NCBI GenBank assembly: GCA_017470525.1
Contig: JAFUYM010000056.1
Location: 1 to 34,343, forward strand
Reading direction: 5' to 3'
Source: Bacteroidaceae bacterium
GTDB taxonomy: Bacteria; Bacteroidota; Bacteroidia; Bacteroidales; Bacteroidaceae
DNA: 34,343 nucleotides
A program made the translations under genes and the position numbers. Below are positions 5,235-34,343 of the stretch, in pieces (positions within the stretch are counted from its first letter, which is position 1; each line of letters begins with the position of its first letter). Under the pieces are notes generated by a model that saw only the letters and a program-made list of their open reading frames with translations, searched no databases and was not told the DNA's origin.

Positions 5235-6737
5235 TTATTTATTCAGTTTCCAAGTAAAGCCATCTTTGGTGTCCTTCACCTCGAAGCCGAGGGCAGCCAA
5301 GTTGTCGCGAATCATGTCGCTGGTTGCCCAGTCCTTGTTGGCTTTGGCTTTGGCGCGCTGTTCGAGCAGCATGTCAACCACCTTGCCGAAGGCTTCCTCG
5401 CGGGCTTCGTTGCCGCCACCGTTGGAGGCTGTGGCACCTCCTGCCTTGATGCCCAGCAGGTCAAAAGTGAAGAGTCGGAAAGTCTCCTTGAGGGCTTCGA
5501 GGGCATCGGGGGTGATGGTCTCCTTCTTGTCAACGATGGAATTGATGAGTTTGGTGGCATCGAAGAGGTGGGAGATGACGATGGGGGTGTTGAAGTCGTC
5601 GTACATGGCATCGTAGCACTGCTGCTTCAGCGCCTCGACTGAATCGAGGCGCACGGAACCATCGGCTGTGGGTTGGATGTTCTGGAGGGCTTTCCATGCA
5701 TCGAGAAGGCGTTCGAGACCTTTTTCGGCAGCTTGGAGGGCATCGTTGCTGAAATCGACGGTGGAACGGTAGTGTGCCTGCAGGATGAAGAAGCGGATGG
5801 TCATGGGCGAGTAGGCACGGTCGAGTTTCGGGTGGTCGCCGCTGAAGAACTGCGGCAGGGTGATGAAGTTGCCGAGCGATTTGCCCATCTTCTGTCCTTC
5901 GATGGTAATCATGTTGTTGTGAATCCAGTAGGTCACCATCTGCTCGCCCTGACTGGCTACGGCTTGGGCGATTTCGCACTCGTGGTGAGGGAAAATCAAA
6001 TCCATGCCGCCTCCGTGGATGTCGAAGTGTGTACCGAGGTATTTCCGTCCCATGGCGGTGCACTCGCAGTGCCAGCCAGGGAATCCGTCGCTCCAAGGCG
6101 AGGGCCAGCGCATGATGTGTTCGGGCTGTGCAGCCTTCCACAGCGCAAAGTCGGCTTGGTTCTTCTTCTCACCCACACCTGCGAGGTCGCGGCTGGCGTC
6201 TTTCACATTCTCAAGGTTTCTGCCCGAAAGGATGCCGTATTTGTGCACCTTGTTGTACTTCTCCACGTCGAAATAGATGGAGCCGTTGCTCTCGTAGGCA
6301 AAGCCGTTGTCGAGAATCTGCTGCACCAGTTGCTGCTGCTCGATGATGTGCCCCGTGGCATGTGGCTCGATGCTGGGTGGCAGACAGCCAAGGGCATCCA
6401 TTGCCTCGTGGAAGCGGTTGGTGTAGTACTGAGCCACTTCCATCGGCTCCAACTGCTCCAGTCGTGCCTTTTTGGCGATTTTGTCTTCTCCCTCGTCGGC
6501 ATCGTGCTCCAAGTGTCCCACGTCGGTGATGTTGCGCACATAGCGCACCTTGTAGCCGATGTGCTTCAGAAAGCGGAAAATGATGTCGAATGTGATGGCT
6601 GGACGTGCATGTCCGAGGTGAGCATCACCATATACTGTAGGTCCGCAGACGTACATGCCCACGTGTGGCGCATGCAGTGGGCGGAACACTTCTTTCTTTC
6701 GAGTCAGTGTGTTATAAACATAAAGTGCCTGTTCCAT
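5235..6737 (-). CDS. cysS: Cysteinyl-tRNA synthetase
   Basis: Charges tRNA-Cys with cysteine in the cytoplasm; class I synthetase, 500 residues, near the usual length. The HIGH motif is HLGH (40-43) within [16 protein letters not shown], and the KMSKS loop is KMGKS (283-287). Zinc ligands match the family: C31, C226 (in WHCECTAM), H251 and E255 (in [10 protein letters not shown]). The C-terminal anticodon-binding region (about 380-500) ends in the family-typical [20 protein letters not shown]. The ATG at 6735-6737 begins [16 protein letters not shown], as in homologues. A TACCTTTG promoter box lies 30 bases upstream. The three genes that follow on the minus strand have short gaps and may be cotranscribed. 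Confidence 0.98.
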
Positions 6738-6766
6738 ATTCTGTGTTTCTTTTGCTAAAACTTGTA

Positions 6767-6797
6767 CAAAGGTACGTAAAAAGTTCCGCTTAAAACA
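6767..6797 (-). promoter_or_regulatory. Bacteroidetes-type promoter of cysS
   Basis: On the minus strand TACCTTTG (6774-6767) is a perfect TAnnTTTG -7 box. About 19-20 nt upstream lies TGTTTT, a weak match to the TTTG -33 element. The predicted transcript start is about 20-25 nt before the cysS ATG. Confidence 0.65.
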
Positions 6798-6846
6798 TCT
6801 TTTTCATCATAAAATGACATTTTGGAAACAAATTCCGTCAAATGTA

Positions 6847-6879
6847 TTGCTGACATTAAAATTTTTCTGACTAAATTTG
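6847..6879 (+). promoter_or_regulatory. Bacteroidetes-type promoter of the Tat/redox operon
   Basis: TAAATTTG at 6872-6879 is a perfect TAnnTTTG box, with a TTG at 6847-6849 about 22 nt upstream as a slightly distant -33 element. It points right and leaves a leader of about 60 nt before the ATG at 6944. The spacing is 2-3 nt longer than ideal. Confidence 0.5.
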
Positions 6880-6943
6880 CCCTCGAAAACTTTTCATACA
6901 ACACAACTTTCATATTCAGATACGTAATTCTAACCTATACCCA

Positions 6944-8533
6944 ATGCTAAAACTTATCCGTAGAATCCTTGCCGTCATTTTCTGGTTAGGCATCACATGG
7001 CTGTTCGTCGATGTGTCGGGAATAGCCCATCATCAAATTGGCTGGATGGCGAAACTCCAGTTCTTGCCCAGCGTAATGGCATTGAACATCACCTCCATCG
7101 TTATTGTGCTCGTTCTGACACTCCTGTTGGGACGCATCTATTGCTCCATCATCTGCCCGCTCGGAGTCTTGCAAGACTTCTTTGCGTGGATTGGGAAATG
7201 GAGAGTCTTCCGTAAGAACAAAAAGGCAAAGTTTGCCAACAGGTACAGTTATTCGAAGCCGAAAACGTGGCTACGCCTCACGGTGTTGGCACTGTTCGTC
7301 ATCATGCTATTGGCAGGTTTCAATGCTGGGGCAGTATTGCTGGCACCTTATAGTTCATACGGACGCATTGTTTCCTCGCTTTTACAAGTGGTTTACATCG
7401 ACATCAACAACCTCTTGGCGCAGTGGTCTGAAGCCAACGACAATTTCATGTTCTATCGGGTGGAGCCACACAACAACCCGCTCATTCTTGTCGTGATAGC
7501 CTCTGTAACGGCACTCATTCTCTTTGTGTTAGCGTTCCTACATGGCAGAACCTACTGCAACACCATCTGTCCTGTAGGCACCACATTAGGCTATCTGGCA
7601 AAGTTCTCGCTGTTCAAGATGCGTGTGGATGAAGACAAATGTGTGAAATGCGGCATCTGCTCCAAGAACTGCAAAGCCTCCTGCATCCAGATAGAAAAGG
7701 GACAATCGGCTGCTTTCGACTACACCCGCTGTGTCACCTGCGGAAACTGCCAAACGGTCTGCCACAAGAAAGCCATTGGCTACCGCTTCGCACCTTTCTG
7801 GACAAAGGTGAAAAACCCGACAGAAGGAACTCCGAAATCAGCAGAAGACCTTTCCCGCCGTTCCTTCCTCTCCATCACAGGCACAGCGGTTGCTGCTGCC
7901 ACCCTCAAGGCACAAGAGAAGACTACGGACGGTGGGTTGGCTGTTATTGAAGAGAAAAAGGTGCCAGAACGGAAAACTCCACTCACCCCTCCAGGCTCGC
8001 TGTCTGCCAAGAACCTGCAACAGCACTGCACCGCTTGCCAACTCTGCATTGCAAACTGTCCGAATCAAGTGCTGCGTCCTTCGCAGCGACTGGAGAATTT
8101 CTTGCAGCCTGAAATGCAGTACGACAAAGGCTATTGCCGCCCCGAGTGTACACGTTGTTCGAGCATCTGTCCAGCAGGTGCCATCCGTCCGATTGACAAA
8201 GATGACAAACTCTTCATTCAAATCGGACATGCCGTATGGGTGAAAGAGAACTGCATCCCACTCACCGACGGCAAGACCTGCGGCAACTGTGCCAAGCACT
8301 GTCCTGCAGGAGCCATCCAGATGGTGCCTGCCGATAAGAGTTACAAACAAGACCCCGATTCGGGAGAATGGACAGATGCAGAAGGTAATCCTTTGAACGA
8401 GCGTGACATCTTAATGATTCCTGTGGTGAACGCTGAGGAGTGCATTGGTTGTGGAGCCTGTGAAAACCTCTGCCCTGCACGACCCTTCAGTGCTATCTAT
8501 GTGGAAGGACACGAGATACACAAGGAAGTGTGA
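6944..8533 (+). CDS. NapH/NapG-like membrane polyferredoxin with internal twin-arginine motif
   Basis: A 529-residue iron-sulfur protein joining two parts usually encoded separately. The N-terminal half is NapH/CcoG-like: four membrane helices (about 8-25, 47-63, 109-133, 180-200) and two GRxYCxxICPxG motifs (63-74 and 201-212), followed by two 4Fe-4S ferredoxin clusters (C233/236/239/243 and C263/266/269/273). A twin-arginine segment, SRRSFLSITGTAVAAA, starts at residue 304. The C-terminal half is NapG/MauM-like with four more Cys groups (362-372, 398-409, 437-453, 500-510). It probably moves electrons from the quinone pool or cytoplasm to the outside; the terminal acceptor is unknown. It heads an operon with a Tat-signal oxidoreductase and tatA/tatC, which fits Tat-dependent export of the second half. 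Confidence 0.88.
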   Translation: MLKLIRRILAVIFWLGITWLFVDVSGIAHHQIGWMAKLQFLPSVMALNITSIVIVLVLTLLLGRIYCSIICPLGVLQDFFAWIGKWRVFRKNKKAKFANRYSYSKPKTWLRLTVLALFVIMLLAGFNAGAVLLAPYSSYGRIVSSLLQVVYIDINNLLAQWSEANDNFMFYRVEPHNNPLILVVIASVTALILFVLAFLHGRTYCNTICPVGTTLGYLAKFSLFKMRVDEDKCVKCGICSKNCKASCIQIEKGQSAAFDYTRCVTCGNCQTVCHKKAIGYRFAPFWTKVKNPTEGTPKSAEDLSRRSFLSITGTAVAAATLKAQEKTTDGGLAVIEEKKVPERKTPLTPPGSLSAKNLQQHCTACQLCIANCPNQVLRPSQRLENFLQPEMQYDKGYCRPECTRCSSICPAGAIRPIDKDDKLFIQIGHAVWVKENCIPLTDGKTCGNCAKHCPAGAIQMVPADKSYKQDPDSGEWTDAEGNPLNERDILMIPVVNAEECIGCGACENLCPARPFSAIYVEGHEIHKEV

Positions 8534-29005: not shown

Positions 29006-29127
29006 AGGGTTAGCACTCAATGCCTTCTCTGGCACACATTATATAATATAAATATAAACACATAACCCACACAGGGCAGTTCCCGCATTGTGCTTTTTTT
29101 GCCCTTTTGAAAAAAGTAAGGGAAATA

Positions 29128-29239
29128 TTTGGTGGTTTCAATCTTTTTCTGTTACCTTGCCAACGAATGAGTGGAAACACTCTCTGCGGTGCTTTTCGGG
29201 ATGCCGTGGCTTATTGGTAATTATAAAAGCGTTATGCTC
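29128..29239 (+). repeat. ~110-bp direct repeat, copy 1, with micro-ORF
   Basis: Runs from TTTGGTGGTTTCAATC to GCGTTATGCTC and is about 90% identical to 30050-30157. Both copies hold an open frame from TTTGGTGG to TAA; from its ATG copy 1 reads MSGNTLCGAFRDAVAYW. A hairpin GAGTG-GAAA-CACTC (GNRA-type tetraloop) lies in the middle. The repeats bracket the nuclease-like gene at 29293-29835. Confidence 0.85.
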
Positions 29240-29292
29240 TTTCTTGCAAGGTGGAAAACTTGGATTATTAGTTGCAGCCCAACTTAAACGAT

Positions 29293-29835
29293 ATGGAATA
29301 TGATATAGCCTTAGAACTTGCACGGCTCCACATCTTGAATGGAGCCGATTTTGTGCGTCAGTTGAAGTTCTTGGCTGGGTTGAGCGATTTCAAGCCTGTA
29401 AAAGGTGAAACCAATATTTATTCCGTAGGTGGAGAAAATAATGAAGACTACTACAATCTGCTTAATGCCGCCCGAAAAGCGGTAGGGTTGGGATACAGGG
29501 TTTTCATATTGCCCAATCCGCAAGGCATTCGCACCGCAGACTTCATCTTTGAAAGAAAAGGCATCTATAAGATGTATGATCTGAAAACGATTCAAGGAAA
29601 AAGTTCCGTGCTTAATCGTTTACTTGAATCGGTCGGACAAACCAATCATGTCTTGCTGAACATGACCACGCCATACAACGCTCGTCTCTTAGCAGCCCAA
29701 ATCAAGACATTTTTTGCAGTCAATCCTGAAGCAATGGAAGTGCTCATTTTCAAAGGTAAAAACATCATATCTGTGAGTCGTCGGTTCACGTATAATCCCC
29801 GATTCATCCAGTTATTCAGGAAGATGTATGAATAG
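29293..29835 (+). CDS. CdiA-CT-like PD-(D/E)XK nuclease (putative toxin)
   Basis: A protein of 180 residues from the ATG at 29293-29295; a TTG seven codons upstream is possible. There is no signal peptide. The C-terminal part (about 65-155) follows the pattern of the tRNA nuclease domain found at the end of CdiA-type toxins: GYRVFILPNPQG, then TADFIF (D83), YDLKT (D96, K98), VGQTNHVLLNM (Q116) and VLIFKGKNIISVS. These are the D...(D/E)xK...Q positions of a PD-(D/E)XK fold. The N-terminal 60 residues are not recognised. It may be a solitary toxin or a phage/ICE-derived nuclease domain. It lies between two direct repeats and overlaps a 38-codon frame at its stop. No immunity gene of normal size is adjacent. 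Confidence 0.72.
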   Translation: MEYDIALELARLHILNGADFVRQLKFLAGLSDFKPVKGETNIYSVGGENNEDYYNLLNAARKAVGLGYRVFILPNPQGIRTADFIFERKGIYKMYDLKTIQGKSSVLNRLLESVGQTNHVLLNMTTPYNARLLAAQIKTFFAVNPEAMEVLIFKGKNIISVSRRFTYNPRFIQLFRKMYE

Positions 29836-29982: not shown

Positions 29983-30049
29983 CTTTTCACAACTTTTTTG
30001 TTCTTTTCACAGAAAAAGGTTCTTTCCACAAACTTTTTTGGTTCAAATG

Positions 30050-30157
30050 TTTGGTGGTTTCAATCTTTTTCTGTTACTTTTCCACCGAATGAGTGGAAAC
30101 ACTCTCTGCGGTGCTTTGGGTGCCGTGGCTTATTGGTAATTTAGAAGCGTTATGCTC
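30050..30157 (+). repeat. ~110-bp direct repeat, copy 2, with micro-ORF
   Basis: Second copy of 29128-29239. Differences are a few substitutions, a 3-base deletion that keeps the micro-ORF in frame (MSGNTLCGALGAVAYW, TAA) and a 1-base change after the stop. Here the hairpin around GAGTG-GAAA-CACTC gains an outer CACCG/CGGTG stem, so this copy folds better. The stretch 29945-30374 holds this repeat, the long palindrome and no supported gene. Confidence 0.85.
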
Positions 30158-30164
30158 GTCGTAT

Positions 30165-30288
30165 ACCAAGAAACCTGAGAAATTTCAAAGTAAATACGAT
30201 GATGTGCATAGTATTTCACGTCTGTATTAGGCGTGGAATGTGCTATTCCATCGTTAGGTATTTACGGGTTTTCTCAGGACCTCTTGGT
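30165..30288. repeat. Long imperfect palindrome (~124 nt)
   Basis: Nested pairing arms: ACCAAGAAACCTGAGAAA (30165-30182) with TTTCTCAGGACCTCTTGGT (30270-30288); GTAAATAC (30190-30197) with GTATTTAC (30258-30265); CGATG (30197-30201) with CATCG (30249-30253); TTTCACG (30214-30220) with CGTGGAA (30232-30238). The result is one long stem with bulges and an ~11-nt apical loop. It lies between repeat copy 2 and the membrane-TIR genes, and could be a leader RNA, a MITE or a recombination site. Confidence 0.65.
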
Positions 30289-30374
30289 AGAAGGTGGAGA
30301 CATGGCAGTTCCACGCTTCTTCGTATGTATATAAATACAAACTTTTGTTGGGACTGGCAAAAGTTATCCAAGCA

Positions 30375-30800
30375 ATGGAAGAAAGATTAAAAAATCCTGC
30401 AGTTCAAACCCATATCACAATGCTACAAGGCATCATCGATAGAATGGGAAAAAACTCGAGCCATTGCAAGCAATGGTGTCTCGCTGTGGAAAGTATATTC
30501 TTTGGTATAGCAAAGGATAATATGAGTTGGTGGTTCTTTGCGTTTATTGTTGTGACTACTCTTTTGTTTTGGTTTCAAGATGCGGGCTATCTTGCATTCA
30601 GCAGACATTTTAGAAACCAACAAAAAACATTTGTGGAAAATCTACATAAAGATATTGATTATGAGAAAGATATTTATCTTGTACATACGTTGAAAGGTTG
30701 TGAACGATGTTGTGCCATAATAGAGGCGGCATCTTCCATCTTTGTGTGGCCAACTTATATCGGAATCATTGCTTTTATGACAATTTTTATGTTAAATTGA
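30375..30800 (+). CDS. Small membrane protein paired with the TIR protein
   Basis: A protein of 141 residues from the ATG at 30375; the frame is open to 30294, but the inner start (MEERLKNPAVQTHITMLQGI) fits a family whose members begin with such a helix. After the soluble helix (5-30, ending RMGKNSSHCKQWC) there are hydrophobic segments at about 33-47, 51-69 and 117-140, with a charged cytoplasmic region between (FSRHFRNQQKTFVENLHKDI). The order 'NP.VQ.H...LQ.II.RM..NS..CK.WC' recalls small membrane proteins seen near TIR-type and other defence genes; that link is from memory. The TIR gene starts 8 bases later, so the two are one unit. It may be the membrane effector or anchor. Confidence 0.72.
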   Translation: MEERLKNPAVQTHITMLQGIIDRMGKNSSHCKQWCLAVESIFFGIAKDNMSWWFFAFIVVTTLLFWFQDAGYLAFSRHFRNQQKTFVENLHKDIDYEKDIYLVHTLKGCERCCAIIEAASSIFVWPTYIGIIAFMTIFMLN

Positions 30801-30808
30801 AGATAAAC

Positions 30809-31993
30809 ATGGGAAACTCACGCCAAAAACTCCATCAATTAAAATGCCTGTATTCCAAGCAACTTAAAAGACCAGTAAACGATGTTGTAAAACTCATGCC
30901 ACTGGGCTTCACGGATGACATGTTTATCCTAAAATTCATACATTGTTATGAATACCTCTGGCTTGACTTACAAAAAGAATGGAAGTTCTATCGGCACAAA
31001 AACAAAGTATTCAAAGGCAAAAAACATCTTCTTTTTCCTTCCCCTTATCGTATGGTGCTTAGTGCAGCATATCATCTGTTGAATAAAGCAAAGAGGGGTC
31101 ACCTCACTCAAATGTCAGGCAAATGGAAGAAAGAACAGGAAAATCGGCTTGTAGATGCTTGTCAGAAGAAACTTTCTGAACGTAAAGAGAAGCAACGGCT
31201 GAATACGGAACTTTTGCAGAACGCTGTGCCAAACTATGCCCACAATATGATTGAATCATATTATTTCTTGCGACATTTTCATCGTGAAGATGTAAATGGT
31301 CGTTTCTATGTTTTGAATGAAATCGCTAAGTTTAATCATTCGAGGTTCGTCGGTTTCTTTATAAATGTGATGAAAAGCGAACGCAATGACTTTTGTCGTG
31401 AATTTGCTTTTCGAACATTGCAGAAATGGGGCAAGACAGTACATCTGCCTAAGAAACCTAAAGGAAAGAAACATCCTTCTGACAAAATCGTGCCAACCAT
31501 TCCGACAAATCCAGAAGAACAGATTGCATTGATTGAAAAACTACAAATGGAGCACGACAAGTCATATAATGTGTTCATTTCGCATCGCTCATTGGATAGG
31601 GTGCTCATTATCAAAATAAAAGATATGCTGAACGGGGAAAATCTGAGCGTTTACGTGGATTGGATGATTGATAAAGATGGACTTCCTCGTGAAAAACTAA
31701 GCGATAAAACTTTGGCAACATTGGAAGTGCGGATGAAGCATTGCGACAGGCTGCTATATGTGCATACTAAAAACTGTAAGGATTCCGAATACATCAAGTG
31801 GGAACTGAACCTTGCTCAACAATACAACATTCCTGTGACCATACTGAATGCCGAGGATGTTTTTGAATCAGATGAAATGAGACATATTCCACATGTTCAT
31901 ATCAAAAAGAACAAACTATTTGTTATGATACAAGACAAAGAAATCCTCTATAAATCTTTGTTTTCGCAAGTCAAATCTCAAAGAAATATGTAA
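30809..31993 (+). CDS. TIR-domain protein with helical N-terminal region
   Basis: A protein of 394 residues from the ATG at 30809-30811; the frame is open further upstream but that part overlaps the membrane protein gene. Residues 1-240 are helical and Lys-rich, with a HEAT/ARM-like stretch at 165-208 (VLNEIAKFNH, then EFAFRTLQKWG). The C-terminal TIR domain (252-350) has YNVFISHRSLDRV, LSVYVDWMIDKDG, RMKHCDRLLYVHT and KWELNLAQQYN. E332 in WEL is at the position of the catalytic Glu of NAD-cleaving TIR domains. A signalling or NADase role in abortive infection is inferred. No ThsA, STING or CD-NTase gene is next to it, so it does not match Thoeris or CBASS. Confidence 0.82.
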   Translation: MGNSRQKLHQLKCLYSKQLKRPVNDVVKLMPLGFTDDMFILKFIHCYEYLWLDLQKEWKFYRHKNKVFKGKKHLLFPSPYRMVLSAAYHLLNKAKRGHLTQMSGKWKKEQENRLVDACQKKLSERKEKQRLNTELLQNAVPNYAHNMIESYYFLRHFHREDVNGRFYVLNEIAKFNHSRFVGFFINVMKSERNDFCREFAFRTLQKWGKTVHLPKKPKGKKHPSDKIVPTIPTNPEEQIALIEKLQMEHDKSYNVFISHRSLDRVLIIKIKDMLNGENLSVYVDWMIDKDGLPREKLSDKTLATLEVRMKHCDRLLYVHTKNCKDSEYIKWELNLAQQYNIPVTILNAEDVFESDEMRHIPHVHIKKNKLFVMIQDKEILYKSLFSQVKSQRNM

Positions 31994-32014
31994 CCTTATA
32001 AAAAACAAGAACGT

Positions 32015-32683
32015 ATGAAAAGACTGATTTCAAAATTAACAATGGTAGCCTTTGGAATGTTACTATCGTCAAGCACTACAGTTTGGGGATTTAACGTTAA
32101 TGGAATATATTATGAAAGGAGCCTTGATTATTATGGAAGAGTAGTCGCCGTGATAAAAGGCGAAGAAGAATATACTGGCTCTGTCATCATTCCATCCTCC
32201 ATCAATTATGATGGTATAGTTTTACCAGTAAGAGTTATTTCGGACAGTGCTTTCAAGGGCTGCAGCGGCTTGACCTCATTGACCATCCCCAGCAGTGTCA
32301 CATCCATTGGCAATAATGCTTTCTCTGGCTGTAGCGGCTTGACTTCATTGACCATCCCCAGCAGTGTCACATACATTGGCAGTTCTGCTTTCTCTTATTG
32401 CAGCGGCTTGACATCCATCACTATCCCTAACAGCGTGACGAGCATCGGCGAGGAAGCTTTCTTGGGCTGTAGCCGCTTGACATCCATCACTATCCCTAAC
32501 AGCGTGACGAGCATCGGCGAGGAAGCTTTCCATTCTTGCAGCCGCTTGACATCCATCACTATCCCTAACAGCGTGACGAGCATCGGCGAGGGAGCTTTCT
32601 CTTATTGCAGCGGCTTGACATCCATCACTATCCCTAACAGCGTGGCGAGCATCGGCAGTTATGCTTTCTATTATTGTATTTAG
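32015..32683 (+). CDS. BspA-type leucine-rich-repeat surface protein, probably truncated
   Basis: A 222-residue protein with a signal peptide (about 1-25, ending TTVWG). After ~55 residues of N-terminal domain (NGIYYERS, then [17 protein letters not shown]) it is built of 23-residue LRR_5 repeats: 'aF.[19 protein letters not shown]'. It stops in the middle of a repeat (YAFYYCI), without the C-terminal domain or secretion tail normal in BspA-like proteins, so it has probably lost its 3' end. Related proteins bind host matrix or other bacteria. The gene starts 21 bases after the TIR gene on the same strand, but a functional link is doubtful. Confidence 0.85.
32249..32662 (+). repeat. Six tandem 69-bp units inside the BspA-type gene
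   Basis: Units start GCTTTC at 32249, 32318, 32387, 32456, 32525 and 32594, and a seventh partial at 32663. The later units are almost identical at DNA level (a block of about 50 bp is shared exactly by units 4 and 5), while the first two differ more, which points to recent expansion by duplication or slippage. Confidence 0.92.
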
Positions 32684-33031: not shown

Positions 33032-33994
33032 ATGCCAAAGACCAGAAAATGCGCTTATTGTGGCAAGGTTTTCACCACAAACAGCGGAATGCAGAAGTAT
33101 TGTTCGGAGGAATGTGCCGAGCAAGCGAAGGAAACCAAGAAAAAGAGAAATAGAGATTTCCTTCGAGCTGTTGAGCCAGTGATGGAACTCCAGCAGCAGG
33201 AGTACCTGACCTTTTCCAAAGCAGCCATCCTTTTAGGCTGCACCCGTCAGTATGTCTATAAACTCGTAGAACAAGGGAAGTTGCCAGCCTCACGGTTAAG
33301 CAACCGAATGGCTCTTGTCCGCAAGAGTGACATAGAGAAGATGTTTGCTGCCAATCCTTATAACCGTGTTCTGCCTTGTACTAAGCCAAAGAAGTCTGTT
33401 TCCAAGAAAATGAAGAGTCCTGCAAAGGACAAGGCAAAGGAGGAACGTGCAACCGATGAAGTTCTCGAATACTACTCAGGCGAAGAAGTGAAACAGATAT
33501 ACAAGGTCAAACAGTCATGGCTTTATGCATCAGCCAAGCGTCACCAGATTCCCATGTGCCGTATTGCAGGACGGAACTACTACAGCAAGAAACACATTGA
33601 TGCAGTATTTGGCACTACCATAGACCTTAATGCCATTGTCGATTGGCTGTCACCACAGGAAGTGGCAGACCGATATGGTATCAACCTTACGGCAGTCCGT
33701 TCCTATGCCCATCGTCACAAGATTCCAACCAAGCGTGAGTATGGATGCACCTACTATTCCCAGAGTCATTTTGATGAACTCCGTCGTACAGATCTCTTAT
33801 CAAACGAGAATTATTATACCGTAGAGCAAGTGCAGCAACTCTATGGACTGACCAAAGCCAACATCTGCCACATTGTCAAGGTTAAGCACATTGAGAAGAC
33901 AAAGGTAGGACGGCTTAACCTCTTGCTTCGTTCCGATGTAGAGAGGGTGATGGAGGAACGGAAATCTTTGGGAATGATGACTGTTGGATACTAA
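33032..33994 (+). CDS. Zinc-finger protein with four excisionase/MerR-like HTH units
   Basis: A 320-residue DNA-binding protein. The N-terminus has a zinc finger (C7, C10, C24, C28: CAYCGK...KYCSEEC). Four winged-HTH units of excisionase type follow: about 58-105 (LTFSKAAILLGCTRQYVYKL), 147-195 (YYSGEEVKQIYKVKQSWLYA), 207-252 (LSPQEVADRYGINLTAVRSY) and 262-312 (YYTVEQVQQLYGLTKANICH). A Lys-rich linker lies at about 118-145. Such proteins occur before tyrosine recombinase genes in Bacteroidetes mobile or invertible loci, where they may direct recombination; here the integrase frame starts 127 bases downstream. Repeated AGTTGACA sites upstream may be its targets. The exact role is unknown. Confidence 0.82.
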   Translation: MPKTRKCAYCGKVFTTNSGMQKYCSEECAEQAKETKKKRNRDFLRAVEPVMELQQQEYLTFSKAAILLGCTRQYVYKLVEQGKLPASRLSNRMALVRKSDIEKMFAANPYNRVLPCTKPKKSVSKKMKSPAKDKAKEERATDEVLEYYSGEEVKQIYKVKQSWLYASAKRHQIPMCRIAGRNYYSKKHIDAVFGTTIDLNAIVDWLSPQEVADRYGINLTAVRSYAHRHKIPTKREYGCTYYSQSHFDELRRTDLLSNENYYTVEQVQQLYGLTKANICHIVKVKHIEKTKVGRLNLLLRSDVERVMEERKSLGMMTVGY

Positions 33995-34121: not shown

Positions 34122-34343
34122 ATGAGTAACATCTGCAAGACCGTGACCCTCCGCACACGGAAAATCAAAGGCGGAGAACAGCTTTCCTTCTATCTCGACT
34201 ACTACCCCGGCTACCGGGACGAGTCCACCATGAAGGTCATGCGCCATGAATCGCTCGGCATCTAAATCTATGCCAAGCCGAAGTCACAACGGGAGAAGGA
34301 CTACAACGACCGTATGCGCGAGAAGGCAGAAGCCCTCCGCTGC
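34122..34343 (+). pseudogene. Tyrosine recombinase N-terminus, interrupted by a stop and cut by the window edge
   Basis: The ATG at 34122-34124 opens MSNICKTVTLRTRKIKGGEQ and continues LSFYLDYYPGYRDEST, the N-terminal arm of Bacteroidetes phage-type integrases. Codon 48 is TAA (34263-34265); the same frame then continues as IYAKPKSQREKDYNDRMREK to the window end, which is the normal continuation of this family. The expected codon is probably TAC (Tyr) after GI, so a single C-to-A change would explain the stop. The catalytic domain lies beyond the window. The gene is either a real pseudogene, a recoded gene or a sequencing error. Confidence 0.75.

Follow-up and report, generated by a model that had tools for sequence, protein, structure and literature searches.

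Does a TIR gene preceded by the gene of a small membrane protein, in a contig of a Bacteroidaceae bacterium, define a defence system of its own, or does it belong to a known class in which one component has been changed? The initial annotation took the two genes for a candidate anti-phage system that does not match Thoeris. We followed up this proposal over one whole contig (JAFUYM010000056.1 of assembly GCA_017470525.1; 34,343 nt, hereafter the window), which comes from a genome estimated to be 83% complete.

The two proteins of the locus

Both open reading frames, of 141 and 394 residues and separated by 8 nt, are present on the + strand as the initial annotation had described them. The first (30375..30800) encodes the membrane protein M50A, a predicted effector, and the second (30809..31993) a long ThsB-like protein predicted to act as phage sensor and NAD-using signal enzyme. 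For M50A a longer GTG start is possible at 30294; the start was set at 30375 because homologues are of similar length. The ThsB-like gene runs from an ATG at 30809 to a stop at 31993, this start being favoured over 30707 since most homologues have a “MG..KR”-like beginning.

The PADLOC ThsB model PDLC00425 spans residues 1–370 of the 394 of the ThsB-like protein (E 3.5e-56). The C-terminal TIR domain (residues 250–389; 31556..31975, + strand), first recognised from the motifs FISHRS, VYVDW and WEL including E332, is confirmed by a Pfam TIR_2 match at residues 255–345 (E 1.3e-6). The predicted active-site F256 (codon 31574..31576, + strand) and the predicted catalytic E332 (codon 31802..31804, + strand) are both intact, and are kept in 19/19 aligned long ThsBs, 18 of which differ in sequence. 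The F-to-E spacing is 76 residues in 17 of the 19, as in the window protein, and 82 in two. The AlphaFold2 model (pLDDT 86.6) shows helices to residue 245, then the TIR fold. BcThsB is the top Foldseek PDB hit for the TIR protein; that several non-Thoeris TIRs rank above BcThsB in VIA counts against the explanation that we prefer below.

The N-terminal half (residues 1–240; 30809..31528, + strand) is presumed to be the sensor domain. It had been called helical and HEAT-like: the first term agrees with the model, while the second finds no profile support, neither HEAT nor ARM families being among the Pfam hits of the protein. Compared by hhalign, the N-terminal halves of 13 M50A-linked proteins match those of four ThsA-linked proteins at 100% (pairwise E 3.4e-41), and the window half alone matches the ThsA-linked profile with an E-value of 4.6e-24, search size being set to 1. 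These profile comparisons show homology between the window N-terminal half and that of the ThsBs whose genes lie near a gene of the SIR2-STALD effector ThsA. In sequence, the TIR protein is related to Thoeris ThsB over its full length, and its catalysis is predicted. It is the sole TIR_2 match in its genome, a count limited by the fact that the TIR_2 model misses some ThsB kinds (e.g. that of locus L046), and no other TIR gene was found in the window.

For the membrane protein, four PADLOC PDC-M50A models give a match, the best one with an E-value of 1.5e-19 over residues 10–139. The window M50A has no significant Pfam match and no NCBIfam family, and three other M50A proteins have no NCBIfam match. 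Pfam detects neither a macro domain nor a recognisable nucleotide-binding domain in the window protein and 36 family members. As for the “two to three hydrophobic segments” noticed at the outset, both numbers are found: two spans (41–76 and 112–141) exceed the chosen threshold in the window protein alone, and the mean hydropathy over 13 homologues has three peaks (about 31–52, 50–73 and 119–141). The AlphaFold2 model (mean pLDDT 89.7) has helices at 8–45, 52–92, 108–119 and 125–140, i.e. a helical hairpin (8–45/52–92) plus C-terminal helices.

R23 and S28 are invariant across 36 aligned M50A proteins, and Q18, I21, M24, N27, K32, F65, D69, L73, E76 and Y128 are conserved in at least 90% of them; Y72, invariant in 12 members, is nevertheless not among these positions in the set of 36. 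Judged by position in the model, the conserved groups would face each other across the long helical hairpin. The window protein retains R23, N27, S28, K32 and D69, but the nearly invariant E76 is replaced by Ser.

Conservation of the pair and exchange of ThsA and M50A

M50A occurs in 23 genomes besides that of the window (5/120 relatives and 20/395 of the phylum, the window's own being counted in each). Our own profile confirmed 20 of the 23, the unrecognised G085, G449 and G452 being left out, and in 17 of these 20 a TIR/ThsB gene lies beside M50A within 300 nt on the same strand. M50A was found in 12/393 Bacteroidales genomes, window included; nine of the 11 others are new, and seven of these nine have a TIR neighbour. 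Overall, 24/29 other genomes have a TIR/ThsB gene next to M50A by these criteria of distance and strand (24/32 if G085, G449 and G452 are included), a count for which the TIR seeds were drawn partly from counted loci (L040, L043, L046, L050 and L004), all verified by PADLOC or Pfam (only by Pfam TIR for L050, only by PADLOC for L046). The five M50A without a recognised TIR neighbour are those of L042 and L053 (no TIR), L008 (contig end), G613 and G676; the neighbour in G613 resembles a TIR by eye and is unmatched by profile.

The ThsB genes adjoining M50A belong to several PADLOC models (PDLC00431, 00422, 00430 and 00428, in loci L040, L043, L046, L004 and L059). Thus M50A looks like a shared effector. 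For the long ThsB, 15 of the 393 Bacteroidales genomes gave a match (E 1e-10), three of them full-length (window, G736 and G705), and all three have M50A next door. Bacteroidota, Chlorobi, Sulfuricurvum and Vibrio all have full-length homologues paired with M50A, which argues that the pairing is more than chance. On a Vibrio chagasii plasmid (L110, 5501–9712) there are two tandem M50A units; a long ThsB accompanies the M50A of one, and two other TIR genes flank that of the other.

We then compared 21 loci in which the long ThsB is full-length (window, L059–L070, L089, L110–L114, G736 and G705), the search covering the available stretch of each. M50A is present in 15 (window included), ThsA in five, both in none and neither in one, L063, whose contig starts 655 nt upstream. 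The recurrence of the pair across genomes, on which the initial annotation had made its reading depend, is seen from the side of either gene. Another TIR gene lies between the long ThsB and M50A in L066, L067 and L069. These counts contain near-identical loci: L089, L112 and L113 among the ThsA-linked, so that the five ThsA loci amount to about three independent ones, and L066 and L067 among the M50A-linked. Two loci were left out: L071 (Streptococcus mitis), where a long ThsB reduced to 180 aa lies near ThsA, and L117 (Campylobacter), where the protein has 329 aa and M50A is close by. In this S. mitis locus (6256–8225) ThsA also reads as two ORFs, and the copy may be broken.

In an Enterococcus faecium plasmid the long ThsB adjoins ThsA (PADLOC ThsA E 8.2e-198, Pfam STALD 1.2e-69), and in Mammaliicoccus, Lactococcus, Aerococcus and Stenotrophomonas it shares a gene cluster with a ThsA match. 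ThsA was identified by PADLOC and Pfam in L112 and by Pfam in L114; L111, L113 and L089 match the ThsA of L112. The plasmid loci come from 19 records in which 80% or more of the query is covered, five of which were examined, the other 14 being 13 E. faecium plasmids of the same identity and a second Stenotrophomonas. The ThsA of the Aerococcus locus (L089, 1672–3083) reads as two ORFs of 323 and 97 aa, and may be broken or misassembled.

In the tree of 19 long ThsBs, G736 and G705 being outside it, the starred branches cannot be reconciled with fewer than two switches between linkage to M50A and linkage to ThsA. One group, supported at 100/100, joins the M50A-linked proteins of Vibrio and Sulfuricurvum with the ThsA-linked ones of Mammaliicoccus and Stenotrophomonas. 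The window ThsB stands on a long branch (2.16), so that its own place on the tree is unsure. In the window M50A is linked to the long ThsB in place of ThsA: none of the non-overlapping ORFs of at least 60 aa matches the ThsA of E. faecium, and the ORFs neighbouring the pair have no SIR2-STALD Pfam family. No STALD match was obtained in the whole genome, with a search that gave none in control genomes either.

Mechanism, rival explanations and mobile context

We consider it probable that the locus acts in abortive infection as a Thoeris-like pair whose effector has been swapped: ThsB would sense the phage and produce an ADPR-type signal, with M50A as membrane effector in the place of ThsA. That M50A fills this place is suggested by the 21 loci, where the long ThsB has M50A or ThsA and never both. 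The helical N-terminal half would bind a phage component, by homology possibly the major capsid protein, and the TIR domain (F256/E332) would convert NAD+ into an ADPR-type messenger. This messenger, or the activated TIR assembly itself, would open or cluster M50A, which would breach the membrane barrier, the infected cell being stopped before phage release. For this pair we infer phage sensing, messenger production, membrane damage and defence by analogy; our literature search returned no phage, NAD or membrane assay of it. A weak point is the route by which M50A would sense the messenger, because it has no recognisable nucleotide-binding domain.

This same feature of M50A would suit a different division of labour, in which the TIR protein is the killer, hydrolysing NAD+ to depletion on phage sensing, and M50A merely a membrane anchor or regulator. 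E332 is intact, and PMC12847820 describes TIR domains as possible effectors that deplete NAD directly. However, the same ThsB family is found with a separate effector, ThsA in 5/21 loci and M50A in 15/21, with no locus having both, and M50A pairs with several ThsB subfamilies, as expected of a shared effector. We hold a killer TIR to be unlikely.

Antitoxin or sensor genes often come first in their units, as does M50A in 11/15 M50A-linked loci (window included), and the two genes are tightly coupled. It could thus be that M50A senses infection or membrane stress and turns on the TIR enzyme, or that the pair is a toxin-antitoxin without phage specificity. But gene order is variable, the long ThsB preceding M50A in L065, L068, L069 and G705, and the N-terminal half, kept between M50A- and ThsA-linked forms, fits a sensor there. 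Both variants appear very improbable.

A dispersed intergenic element of about 290 nt has one copy just upstream (30045..30335, + strand), ending about 40 nt 5' of M50A, and this copy possibly holds the M50A promoter; the annotation had rightly placed the pair among repeats. Copies or partial copies of the element are also found at 29123–29239 of the window and on three other contigs of the same genome (C57, C30 and C11), the other copies being 73–97% identical to that at 30045 and near different genes. The integrase said to lie beside the pair exists in part: an ORF at 34122–34265 matches the N-terminus of Bacteroidales site-specific integrases (a match to 12 plasmid records, the five listed bearing the integrase name), but it is about 2.1 kb away and is closed by an in-frame stop that lies 78 nt from the end of the contig.

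Three other ORFs were observed nearby. At 29272–29835 a 187-aa ORF, preceded by the partial repeat copy, has a weak CdiA_C match (E 1.8e-4, below cut-off). Directly after the pair (32015–32683) lies a BspA-type leucine-rich repeat gene with 69-nt repeats. The 320-aa protein encoded at 33032–33994 has four HTH_17 (excisionase-like) stretches, and matches PADLOC mad1 at 2e-17 yet falls under the NCBIfam MADS1 cut-off.

Divergence or decay is conceivable, given the loss of E76 in the window M50A and the long branch of its ThsB, and the pair might be a decaying or recently imported remnant without present function in this genome. The GC content, 37–38% over 30001–32000 versus 44–53% over 1–29000, and the in-frame stop of the integrase ORF point the same way. 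A further TIR gene, or several, is present at 11/15 M50A-linked and 5/5 ThsA-linked loci and absent in the window, L062, L064 and L068; the second TIR of most sister loci slightly lowers the weight of the effector swap and slightly raises that of decay. Both reading frames are nevertheless open, and neither the residues predicted to form the TIR active site nor the predicted fold shows damage. The low GC is common in acquired defence genes, which usually have it. Decay is in our judgement quite unlikely.

A pair of this sort is also carried by a phage. In Vibrio phage 10N.286.55.A5_PE002 (PQ189363.1, L156; 14 kb) an integrase, a ThsB-annotated gene and M50A lie in a row (178–2635), the last two overlapping by 4 nt, and profiles found no ThsA in the 6.5 kb examined. 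At the corresponding place, two more Vibrio phages have an M50A match. With the conserved pairing and the PADLOC matches of both proteins, the phage-borne pair supports the initial view of a two-gene defence candidate made of a TIR protein and a membrane partner.

Relation to known systems and meaning for the family

The locus is not outside Thoeris: it has a Thoeris-like sensor with a different effector. The claim that it does not match Thoeris therefore holds for the effector, which is neither ThsA nor a protein with a macro-domain match, and fails for the TIR gene, whose product is related to ThsB from end to end. Compared with type I (ThsB TIR plus SIR2-STALD ThsA), the kinship to ThsA-linked ThsBs is full-length, N-terminal half included, but the window has a 141-aa membrane protein in place of ThsA and a single TIR gene. 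As far as published descriptions go, ThsB1 of Staphylococcus aureus and Streptococcus equinus has its Phe and Glu 76 residues apart, as in the window protein: in PMC12578639 the putative active-site pairs are F242/E318 and F260/E336, and ThsB1 complexes with the phage major head protein. According to the same paper, mutations of the ThsB1 active site leave immunity of Sau-Thoeris intact, ThsB2 being the signal maker, while the S. equinus system needs no ThsB other than ThsB1 against one phage. The dispensable active site and the signal coming from ThsB2 in Sau-Thoeris weaken the effector swap as an explanation.

In type II, as presented in PMC11204291 and PMC12948488, ThsB is likewise coupled to a membrane effector, a transmembrane-macro ThsA. 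That effector is however gated by its macro domain, whereas the 141-aa M50A has no macro match. For type III, the window protein scores 18.7 bits with the NCBIfam model NF058526 (ThcB4), versus a cut-off of 220.

Whether the system already has a name receives a divided answer. The membrane gene is the PDC-M50A of PDC-M50, a phage-defence candidate that PADLOC-DB lists as M50A with the small TIR-like M50B; the name PDC-M50 was not found in the literature searched. In the window this small partner is replaced by the long ThsB: the model of PDC-M50B (PDLC04688) fits a 163-aa ThsB_TIR protein type and gives no match to the second gene at E up to 1. The TIR and transmembrane cassette of the P2-like phage AC1, which protects E. 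coli C according to PMC9122126, also associates a TIR protein with transmembrane proteins, but has three genes versus two here, and is likened to the window pair by its description. Novelty is thus partial, since PDC-M50 is already in PADLOC-DB and, by that account, the AC1 cassette has already been tested.

TIR genes also lie beside small 2TM proteins of the SLATT family, like the window pair; these proteins are predicted, in PMC9503650, to control membrane permeability when ADPR derivatives are present. We tried M50A as a SLATT protein and rejected it: hhalign probabilities were at most 1.4% against three stretches with Pfam SLATT matches, and SLATT is absent among 25 of the 40 Pfam families listed for 36 M50A proteins (E up to 1), the remaining 15 matching one member each. 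In these tests M50A shows no sequence kinship to SLATT.

A bolder reading, which we offer tentatively and as rather doubtful, would make of these loci a further Thoeris type, in which a capsid-sensing long ThsB would repeatedly have traded its SIR2 effector for a membrane protein some 140 residues long that lacks a separate nucleotide-binding domain. The conserved polar patch in the helical hairpin of this protein (R23, N27, S28 and K32 against D69) would bind the ADPR-type messenger directly, or the TIR assembly would gate the protein by contact.

The main value of the locus lies in the recurrent exchange of effectors and in the membrane family M50A, which has no Pfam match and for which our searches returned no functional test. 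The sensor half of Thoeris is kept while the killing half is exchanged, so that the same kind of ThsB can be studied in combination with ThsA and with M50A. As M50A adjoins several kinds of ThsB, knowing its function could make sense of TIR loci as a class. Compared with the macro-gated membrane effector of type II Thoeris, it would reach the same outcome in a shorter way and, if an ADPR derivative does activate it although it has no known binding domain, it would represent a novel type of nucleotide-gated membrane effector.
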